Below are positions 56,866-59,604 of a stretch of DNA of 64,000 nucleotides, in pieces. This DNA is from Candidatus Peregrinibacteria bacterium (lineage in GTDB: Bacteria; Patescibacteriota; Gracilibacteria; UBA1369; LOWO2-01-FULL-3): assembly GCA_026395515.1 (NCBI GenBank), contig JAPLYN010000005.1:361521-425520 (forward strand). The letters run 5' to 3'. Every line of letters starts with the position of its first letter. Position 1 is the stretch's first letter. The notes under the pieces are model-generated. The model did not search any database. It worked only from the letters and a program-made list of their open reading frames with translations, and was not told the DNA's origin. Both the position numbers and the translations under genes were made by a program.

Positions 56866-57896
56866 CTAGGAAGCCTTATTATCTGTTAATTTTTCAAGCA
56901 GAAACCAATTGAAATATTTTTGTTTTTTCTCGTTGCAATGACTCTTTATCAATCCACTGTAACTGGAAATATTGCTGGAATTTAGTCTCGTCTGGGCGCG
57001 CATAAAGCTTCTTTTATTTAAATTTCTACCAGAGAGCCAGAATTTGATGCCGAGAAATTTAAGACCATGCGATGGCTTGAGAATTTTGTCGCTTTTGGGA
57101 TTCACAACTAATTTCAATTTATTATTCAAAAAATTGGTGACTTGTGTGCGAAATAATCTCAACTTTTCCAGATCATTTTCAACAATAATAAAATCATCGC
57201 CGTAGCGGAGGTACGAGCCCGCCTGCAATTCATGCTTAACAAATCTATCCAATTCGTTCAAATAAATATTGGCAAAAATCTGGCTGGTAAGATTGCCGAT
57301 TGGCATGCCGATTTTGCCGCCACCCGTAGAATTGAAACTGAAAATTATTTCTTTCAACAAATTTAAAGTTGTACTATCTTTGATACGAAATGAAAGAATT
57401 TTAAGCAAAATCTCTTGATCCACACTGTCAAAAAACTTTTTCACATCACATTTCCAGATGCAGGAAGAAGGCTTACACAAGCCATTTTTCTCGCGCCTGT
57501 GTGTGTGTGTGTGTGTGTAACAGAGCGCTTCAGAAAGCAAGCTGTTCTTTCAATGGCTCCCAACAATCCCTTCCCTTTGCGACAAGACCAAGCATCATAA
57601 ATAAAAGTTTTGTCGTAAATATTTTCCAAATAATCGTAGATCAATCGGTGAACTACGCGATCGCGAATATGAGCGACGGAAATTTCGCGACGCTTATTAT
57701 CATTAACAATAAATTTTCGGTAAGTGCCATGACGATAATTTCCGGAATTGAGGTCTCTAAAAAGAGTAGACAAATTTTTCTCGAGATAATACTGAAAATG
57801 ATGCAGTTCATCAGTCGCTTTTTTGCCTTTTCTGAACTCTCTCCAACTCCTCCAAATATTTTTTAAACTTAAATCTATGGATTCACTACCAATCAT
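56866..57896 (-). CDS. DGR reverse transcriptase, reading frame split at an AC repeat
   Basis: Frame 1 runs from ATG 57896 to a stop at 57441 (IWRSWREFRKGKK; ISVAHIRDRVVHRLIYDYLE; WSCRKGKGLLGAIERTACFL). Frame 2 continues to 56866 (WKCDVKKFFDSVDQEILL for motif A; GMPIGNLTSQIFANIYLNEL, with the DGR-typical IGNLTSQ; YLRYGDDFIIV, the catalytic YxDD motif; GLKFLGIKF). The switch lies exactly at a 21-nt AC tract, offset by -1. Removing one dinucleotide gives a continuous 342-residue protein with an extra His-Thr run between the RKGKG motif and motif A. The enzyme copies the template RNA with adenine mutagenesis. As written it is off, pending tract change or frameshifting. Confidence 0.93.
57498..57518 (-). 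repeat. Simple sequence repeat (AC)10A within the RT gene
   Basis: A 21-nt perfect dinucleotide tract encoding a His-Thr run, flanked by CTGTT and GGCGCG on the coding strand. It is the junction of the two RT frames. A tract of 19 or 25 nt would keep RT in frame; 21 nt does not. Confidence 0.95.
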
Positions 57897-58221
57897 AAAT
57901 AAAACTTATGAAGCCTACAAAAATATTATAGAGCTAAATATCCACATCACAAAACACAATAGATACGGCCTGGGAACGAGCTTGGAAAATTCTATAGTTG
58001 AATGTCTGGAAGAACTAATCATGACTAAAAACGCCCCCAAAACACTCAAGGCGGGATATCTCATTAGAGCCAGCAGCAAGCTGGAAATATCGACTTTAAA
58101 ACTCCGCCTACTCCTGGAACTGGCCATCGCCAATGAAACAAATATATTCCAAATCCAAGCAAAATTAGCCGAAATAGGCCGTATGCTTGGCGGTTGGCTA
58201 AAATCTGTCCAAAGTTTATAG
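57877..58221 (+). CDS. avd: DGR accessory variability determinant (Avd)
   Basis: A 114-residue four-helix-bundle protein from ATG 57877 (MDSLPIINKTYEAYKNII). Upstream frame is not protein-like. The family C-terminal signature is clear (AKLAEIGRMLGGWLKSV, close to the AEVGRILGSW of the Bordetella phage Avd), with RYGLGTSLENSIVECLEELI and helix 3 AGYLIRASSKLEISTLKLR. Avd forms a barrel pentamer that binds the RT and template RNA and is needed for retrohoming. Here it lies on the strand opposite to TR and RT; its start overlaps the RT start by 20 bp and its stop ends one base before the TR. Confidence 0.92.
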   Translation: MDSLPIINKTYEAYKNIIELNIHITKHNRYGLGTSLENSIVECLEELIMTKNAPKTLKAGYLIRASSKLEISTLKLRLLLELAIANETNIFQIQAKLAEIGRMLGGWLKSVQSL

Positions 58222-58497
58222 ACCCTTATCAGGCGACGCACGCCGCGATTATCATTCTCATTGTTCTGATTGTCATTGTTGACGTTAGAGTTCTGATTGT
58301 TAGGATTGAAGTTTACATTACGAGGCAACGACGGCGCCATGTTTGATGAAGATTGTCCGTTTCTACCTTTGCAGTCCGACTACCGCAAGGTAGGCGCAAC
58401 CGCGCAGTAGGCATTGGTTTGCATTATTTCACCCGGTCTAGCTCCGCTAGTGACGGAGCAGCCAAGGTAACCTTCACTCATACCTAAGGGTCTATAT
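58217..58497 (-). ncRNA. Candidate DGR template RNA with closing stem
   Basis: A perfect 12-bp inverted repeat brackets the TR: TATAGACCCTTA (58217-58228) and TAAGGGTCTATA (58485-58496). On the minus-strand RNA this would pair the 5' end with the bases just after the TR. Inside, 5' of the TR, are hairpins GCTCCG/CGGAGC (58441-58459) and CTACC/GGTAG (58380-58393). A CATAAT -10-like box at 58504-58509 places a start at about 58497, exactly at the closing stem; its -35 is weak. The RNA's 3' arm overlaps the avd stop codon. Confidence 0.55.
58222..58334 (-). repeat. DGR template repeat (TR)
   Basis: 113 bp, aligned without gaps to the VR at 58665-58777. Read on the minus strand it holds 14 AAY codons (Asn), whose A-mutagenesis gives many amino acids without stop codons. 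All 22 differences from the VR are at TR adenines (22 of 37). The A-free GC-rich stretch 58230-58248 near the 3' end fits the initiation-of-mutagenic-homing region. Confidence 0.95.
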
Positions 58498-58651
58498 TTT
58501 CAAATTATGATTTTTCAGACTTCTTCTTTAATTCAAAGCCTTTTTTAGAAAAACCACGCGAACGGCAGCTCTATCCAAGTAGAGTGACTATTCACCGTTG
58601 AATAAAATATAACAAAAAAATAAGTTTTAAAAAAGAATTAAAGATTAAATA

Positions 58652-59545
58652 CTAAGCCTTTTCAACCCTTAGCAGGCGACGCACGCCGCGAGAATCAACC
58701 TCACCGTACTGAAGGTCATCGCAGACGAGAGAGCCCTGATTGTTAGGATCGAAGAAAACATCACGAGGCAACGACGGATTTTCTTCTGACTCCAACCAAG
58801 ATGAACGCCATTCACTTTTATCAGGAGATTGTACAAAGTGTTTTCCTGTATGACTTTCATATTGTTGAATTTCTTCACTCTTGTCGTATGGTTCGGTGTA
58901 CGGGAACATTTCGTAACCTGTTGATTGACGTTTACCATCTTCACCAGAGATTAATTTACCGGTCATATCGTTTTTATCGTGTTTGTACAAAACTCTATCA
59001 CGTGTATTTTTGTAGTTCATCCCTTTCATCACCGGCTCATCTCCACGGTCGGAAATTAAAGGTCTGCCTTGTGCATCCACTCCAAACAATTGACCACCTT
59101 GTTCCATAGCTTGGGCAAGAGCAAGATAATGACCCTCATTTGCGAGTAAACGAGTTTGTATATATGCCCATGAAATTTTAGATTTTAGAGTCGGATCGGC
59201 GTCAAAATCTGCTTTGAAAGTTTTAAGGCGTGGGTCTACTTCTACAGATTCAGTAGGTGCTACAACCGCCTTCGCGGCTTGCCCCACCTCGGCAACAACA
59301 GCTTTTTCTGCTCCCTGTTCTTTTGCAATTGCAGATCTTAAAGCTTCAATGTCGTTATCCTTTCTTCTGGCAAAAACAATTGGATCCACTTTAACTCCAG
59401 TCTGTTCTAACTGAATTCTAGCAATTTCAATCAAATTTTTTGCATCAGAAACTAACTTAGATTCTGGAGAATCAAATTCTGTTTGGCGCTTTTGAGGGCC
59501 AAGTTTTTCTGCGTCGTAACCTTCAGGCAATTGATTCAATTCCAT
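58652..59545 (-). CDS. DGR target protein with variable C-terminal CLec-type domain
   Basis: A 297-residue protein without signal peptide or membrane helix. The N-terminal half is helical (about 25-150); the C-terminal half has the DGR target-fold pattern (KISWAYIQTRLLANEGHYLALA; KGMNYKNTRDRVLYK; EWRSSWLES) and ends with the variable part and the constant RGVRRLLRVEKA. Compared with the TR, 13 residues differ, 12 of them at Asn (AAY) codons, now Asp, Phe, Gly, Leu, Cys, Tyr, Val or Ser. It has its own strong promoter. A cytoplasmic or non-classically exported binding protein is likely; the ligand is unknown. Confidence 0.9.
   Translation of the reverse strand: MELNQLPEGYDAEKLGPQKRQTEFDSPESKLVSDAKNLIEIARIQLEQTGVKVDPIVFARRKDNDIEALRSAIAKEQGAEKAVVAEVGQAAKAVVAPTESVEVDPRLKTFKADFDADPTLKSKISWAYIQTRLLANEGHYLALAQAMEQGGQLFGVDAQGRPLISDRGDEPVMKGMNYKNTRDRVLYKHDKNDMTGKLISGEDGKRQSTGYEMFPYTEPYDKSEEIQQYESHTGKHFVQSPDKSEWRSSWLESEENPSLPRDVFFDPNNQGSLVCDDLQYGEVDSRGVRRLLRVEKA
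58665..58777 (-). repeat. DGR variable repeat (VR)
   Basis: The 113-bp 3' end of the target gene. Identical to the TR at all 76 non-adenine positions and at 15 of 37 adenine positions. The stop codon follows about 4 codons after the end of the repeat. Confidence 0.95.
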
Positions 59546-59575
59546 AAAATTATAGATTTAAATATTCAGCGACAA

Positions 59576-59604
59576 ATAATAACTACTTTTATAGATTTTG
59601 TCAA
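59576..59604 (-). promoter_or_regulatory. Promoter of the DGR target gene
   Basis: Minus strand TTGACA (59599-59604), 17-nt spacer, TATTAT (59576-59581). It is a near-consensus housekeeping promoter with a leader of about 25 nt. Confidence 0.8.

Follow-up and report, generated by a model that had tools for sequence, protein, structure and literature searches.

Among the targeted hypermutators of microbes, diversity-generating retroelements (DGRs) are the best known. The DGR of Bordetella phage BPP-1 (structures 8ub7-8ubf) has its reverse transcriptase (RT) fold, its Avd protein and its adenine-directed pairing of a template repeat (TR) with a variable repeat (VR) in common with the element described here. 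In BPP-1, avd, TR and brt form one operon with a structured spacer 3' of the TR, and in the reconstituted system inactivating bRT, Avd or the TR lowers retrohoming to ~1e-9 (PMC12875486). BPP-1 has no repeat tract, unlike the DGR of the window (the whole 64-kb stretch of DNA analysed), where Avd lies antisense between TR and RT and a conserved structured RNA with a predicted closing stem precedes the TR on its 5' side. In host group and cellular type the window DGR agrees with DGR clade 2 (Patescibacteria/CPR) of Roux et al. 2021 (PMC8144416). That survey reported slower turnover in clades 2 and 5, leaving open a tighter control of the RT. Its RTs were limited to 250-550 aa, a range that by our reckoning would filter out most frameshifted RTs, and its main text contains neither "frameshift" nor "opposite" (PMC8144416). 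Surveys that require a full-length RT probably undercount the DGRs of CPR. How hosts protect a good target from such a mutator is the wider question.

Contingency loci built on simple-sequence repeats (SSRs) are known in surface, glycosyltransferase and restriction-modification genes of host-associated bacteria. The CPR DGRs resemble them in their coding SSRs, mixed frame states, hypervariable unit number and recurrent evolution; they are unlike the usual contingency loci in that the controlled gene itself generates diversity, which would make this a second-order switch. In the repeat-mediated mutability switches of mutL and mutS (Chen et al. 2010, PMC2955026) a slipped-strand tract toggles a mutation-rate gene, as is proposed here, but those switches control mismatch repair across the genome and the CPR switch would control a mutator directed at a single target gene. 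A search confined to the open literature yielded no earlier report of a slippage-switched DGR, and priority is uncertain.

The DGR of the window

The window element, from a Peribacteria/Peregrinibacteria-type member of the ultra-small bacteria of the CPR, is a genuine diversity-generating retroelement, with an A-only TR/VR pair, a DGR-type RT, an Avd and a target whose 3' end carries the VR (Table 1). Read in the minus-strand sense, TR and VR align without gaps over 113 bp, and all 22 mismatches fall on TR adenines (37 A in the TR; hypergeometric p = 6e-14), as nine A>G, nine A>T and four A>C changes. The 76 positions that are not A in the TR are identical in the VR, and 12 of the 14 Asn codons of the TR are altered. 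Apart from the split by type of substitution, these counts had been given in a first-pass annotation and were reproduced on recomputation, as was its placing of an RT with IGNLTSQ and YGDD motifs side by side with Avd and the target gene. The repeat pair also supports its reading of adenine-directed mutagenic retrohoming in the recent past.

Is the cassette complete, as had been claimed? The RT gene is not intact. An ORF running from 57896 to 57441 encodes RT residues 1 to ~125 and, past a (CA)10 tract, continues in the wrong frame to its end; the palm ORF (57540 to 56866) is open, but in another frame. The two meet inside the tract; no other dinucleotide repeat in the 64 kb reaches five units. 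Because the RT is frameshifted there, the cassette is neither complete nor working as assembled: the element belongs to the DGR family and was sequenced OFF. The interval first proposed, 56866-59604, does hold the DGR; it starts with the second RT half-ORF and left the break unmentioned. The conserved RT blocks are separated by 62 nt more than they would be without the repeat (2 mod 3); by arithmetic, 9 or 12 CA units would restore the frame.

Table 1. Features of the window DGR (positions within the window; arms of the RNA stem in minus-strand sense)
Feature	Position	Strand	Support
RT palm, IGNLTSQ and YGDD, frame 2	56866..57540	-	Pfam RVT_1 1.6e-13
RT N-terminal part, frame 1, ATG at 57896	57441..57896	-	PHROG 1423 RT 4e-33; tblastn to relatives
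(CA)10 tract (coding strand), RT site A, proposed slippage switch	57498..57517	-	
Avd, head-to-head with RT, antisense between TR and RT	57877..58221	+	Pfam bAvd 4.6e-10
Predicted closing stem of TR RNA, 3' arm TAAGGGTCTATA	58217..58228	-	
Template repeat (TR)	58222..58334	-	
Structured leader of TR RNA	58335..58500	-	fold z = -3.6
Predicted closing stem of TR RNA, 5' arm TATAGACCCTTA	58485..58496	-	
Target gene, 297 aa, divergent DUF4256-like	58652..59545	-	E 0.11
Variable repeat (VR), C-terminus of target	58665..58777	-	

When the two RT parts are joined, the closest solved structure by sequence is the BPP-1 DGR RT (8ub7, E 3.8e-36). A Foldseek search with the close homologue L108 returned 8ub7, 8ubd, 8ubc and 8ubf as best matches (E 6e-21). 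In the AlphaFold model of this homologue, the place of the tract, called site A, is a loop of residues 127-147 leading from a helix to the first palm strand and modelled at low confidence (pLDDT ~50). A second place, site B, is the loop following residue 188.

Avd, TR RNA and targets

The window Avd also matches NCBIfam NF033474 (DivGenRetAVD) at 5e-16, below the curated cut-off. It is encoded opposite to RT and TR and shares 20 nt with the start of the RT gene, an arrangement on which the first-pass annotation was silent. Could this be a peculiarity of one genome? That idea was rejected: wherever an Avd was found among the related loci it runs antisense, placed between the TR and the RT except in L157 and L165, where it lies elsewhere.

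The TR RNA is predicted to form a stem that pairs its start with the end of the TR, closing over the TR. A consensus fold of 12 loci has 41 pairs, 26 of them with compensatory changes (changes on both sides), on a modest alignment (A4) from which the fold itself was predicted. An Rfam search at the gathering threshold returned tRNAs and no DGR RNA, the TR RNA leader matching no family.

Several related DGR targets are DUF4256 proteins (PF14066, 1e-16 to 1e-53) with the VR at the C-terminus. The window target is divergent and matches this family weakly, at 12.6 bits, below the cut-off of 27; the table calls it DUF4256-like. Its VR domain may have a CLec fold, the structure model of the target being of low confidence (pLDDT 43.8). 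A second target of 267 aa, homologous to the first (2e-89), is encoded on contig C4 (L005, 9593-10393). Its VR differs from the TR at 28 positions, 18 at A and 10 at other bases, and these 10 point to an older or weakly served target.

Repeat tracts in related genomes

In a protein search of 99 relatives, the RT matched in two pieces, and many genomes share the residues at which these part. The DNA of the junctions contains (CA)n in eight genomes (G000, G001, G023, G027, G029, G062, G071 and G076), (CT)18 in G053 and C8 in G082, and (CA)17 occupies a different RT loop in G083. The junction tracts are in frame in G027 and G062 and out of frame in the remaining relatives. Within the window's own family, L108 is in frame and L109, L112 and L113 are not. 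When these 99 genomes were scanned for the pattern (CA)8, nine had tracts, all inside DGR RT genes, with two such RTs in G076. The contig ends in the tract in G009 and in or near it in G002. Two relatives show signs of DGR decay: the Avd of L109 (G029) is without its N-terminal half, and the RT of L119 (G003) is only a fragment.

How far does this extend? The survey comprised 83 DGR RT loci, 80 from GTDB genomes (profile search) and 3 from IMG/VR, with each species represented by one assembly. The GTDB loci are nearly all Patescibacteria/CPR (Peregrini-, Peri-, Berkel-, Moran-, Nomura-, Uhr-, Falkow-, Saccharibacteria and others), and one is labelled Rokuibacteriota. TR/VR pairs with A-only mismatches lie near most of the 83, most frameshifted (OFF) loci included. 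About 42 of the 83 carry SSRs, shorter tracts counted, at a few places in RT or Avd. At site A, which precedes the first palm strand, the tracts are CA, CT or C8; site B, the loop before GxPIGN, holds GA, TC, CA, G13, AGCC x12, GTCA x24 or AGAC x24.5. Further tracts lie at the RT N-terminus (L175, also L203 and L212) and, as poly-C or (CA)n on the Avd strand, at the Avd N-terminus. Overall the units are CA, CT, GA, TC, C, G, AGCC, AGAC and GTCA. A reading of the last group (site C) as RT promoter tracts was rejected, as most fall in the N-terminal coding part of a divergent Avd.

At fixed thresholds, 39 tracts occur in 88.8 kb of RT and Avd start (RT with 130 nt upstream) against 10 in 391 kb of flanks, a 17-fold higher density, and half of the flank tracts are A/T runs. 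On the RT tree, whose support is moderate and which does not tell gains from losses, tract presence requires 19 changes and site plus unit 26; if only strongly supported branches are counted, sites A, B and C need a minimum of 2, 5 and 2 changes.

Viral DGRs served as control. In 80 viral DGR RT loci from an IMG/VR profile search (two single-sequence queries had given few loci), the 85 kb of RT sequence contains no tract and none of the RTs changes frame (Fisher p = 5e-16, counted by loci). Scans of IMG/VR for a tract and then for RT motifs gave no match. The DGR RTs of Pseudoalteromonas prophage proACA1-A and phage ACA1 (L304/L305) differ by one A in an A5/A6 run; the frameshifted prophage RT, described as presumably nonfunctional, was rejected as a tract case.

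Frame states and selection

Frame states were obtained by profile-guided frame analysis of the RT loci. All 20 frameshifted RTs break at a tract, with one frame change each, including three at short tracts (C8 in L121, AG5 in L131, GA5 in L164), and none of the 46 full-span RTs free of an A or B tract is broken (Fisher p = 3e-11, computed with 41 controls). RTs with an A or B tract are in frame in 8 of 28 cases and out of frame in 20, with no departure from one third (p = 0.69). Of the loci with an Avd tract, 10 have the preceding ATG out of frame and one (L173) has it in frame, a share below one third; in 13 tract-free control loci the ATG is in frame. The start-codon assignment behind these counts is our own reading, and alternative starts exist in some loci. 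Downstream of the break, the RTs of OFF-OFF pairs have dN/dS of ~0.07-0.11 and no further stops. The RT is under purifying selection despite its OFF alleles. As dN/dS measures long-term history, this fits a gene that is often ON. Taken by the properties of SSR contingency loci, there is a coding SSR beyond background, there are orthologues in and out of frame, and the gene is kept by selection.

Could the frameshift simply be decay, with the RT a pseudogene and the DGR of this genome and others dead or dying? A full window RT indeed cannot be produced as assembled, and a few relatives are decaying elsewhere (the Avd of L109, the RT of L119), so some OFF copies may be dead. Decay would scatter its lesions, yet every break sits on a tract and tract-free RTs are unbroken; neither the selection downstream of the break in OFF copies nor a 17-fold excess of tracts over the flanks, recurring in unrelated form, is what it would leave. 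Decay is thus an improbable general account, and as sole cause both it and assembly error were rejected, given breaks only on tracts and purifying selection. An RT that looks "broken" in an assembly is not necessarily dead.

Slightly less probable again is that the tracts are sites of programmed translational frameshifting or transcriptional slippage, a dosage device through which all alleles would yield a little full-length RT. The tracts do sit between two long open frames, and homopolymers such as C8 and G10 could permit transcript slippage. A fixed signal, however, needs neither the wide variation seen in unit, length and place nor a third of the RT-tract alleles in frame, and dinucleotide and tetranucleotide tracts are not among the known recoding signals. 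Could the repeats instead be neutral expansions of a disordered loop (Thr-His or Arg-Glu repeats) with no switching role? Sites A and B are loops, site A of low pLDDT, but neutral growth would preserve the frame, which is lost in 20 of 28, and would leave the tracts just after the Avd start codon unexplained; we consider this very unlikely. Least likely of all is assembly or sequencing error, to which repeats are prone, which could still alter single unit counts and which the contig ends in G009 and G002 might recall, since the tracts recur in many independent assemblies from different projects and in no viral DGR, most of them should be shorter than a short read, and error would not place every (CA)8 tract of 99 genomes in one gene family.

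A proposed slippage switch on a targeted mutator

On the sequence evidence, we put at roughly 0.8 the probability that CPR DGRs are phase-variable, slippage turning a targeted mutator on and off, and that the window copy was sequenced OFF. Replication slippage, itself inferred, would alter the number of units in the tract. About one state in three would give full-length RT (or Avd) and a working DGR (ON); in the other states the catalytic part would not be made and the VR of the target would be frozen (OFF). A frameshift at site A or B would remove the part with the YGDD motif. A switch in either RT or Avd should suffice, since retrohoming in BPP-1 requires the two proteins together. The population would then be a mix of cells diversifying the target and cells keeping a working version, and the window VR would have been diversified before its copy was turned OFF.

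The broader reading, which we hold likely if a little less firmly, is that across much of CPR the DGRs are second-order contingency loci in which a reversible, stochastic slippage switch gates targeted hypermutation. It includes several origins, four positions for the switch (site A, site B and the N-terminus in RT, and the N-terminus in Avd) and populations that hedge between diversifying and conserving the target. As a means of DGR control, a slippage tract in RT or Avd would be concrete, heritable and open to direct testing.

Tracts beyond DGRs and neighbouring palindromes

In a phylum-wide sample of 380 genomes, (GA)9 occurs in 41, and 30 tracts were retrieved. Sixteen of these lie in a DGR RT or at the start of Avd or RT; others lie in genes of kinds for which phase variation is known. 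Judged by eye, these (GA)9 tracts are in or near genes resembling those for surface proteins, pilin-like proteins, a glycosyltransferase and a restriction specificity subunit (L191, L192, L199, L202, L206, L211, L213 and L218), which suggests that CPR use slippage switching more widely.

A short hairpin, GCGAAGCCATTTTTCGC, comes after the CA tract in several relatives (L108, L109, L110, L113, L117 and L118). A sequence similar to it adjoins the tract in the window as well (57462-57497), in inverted orientation, and palindromes border further tracts in L136, L139 and L168.
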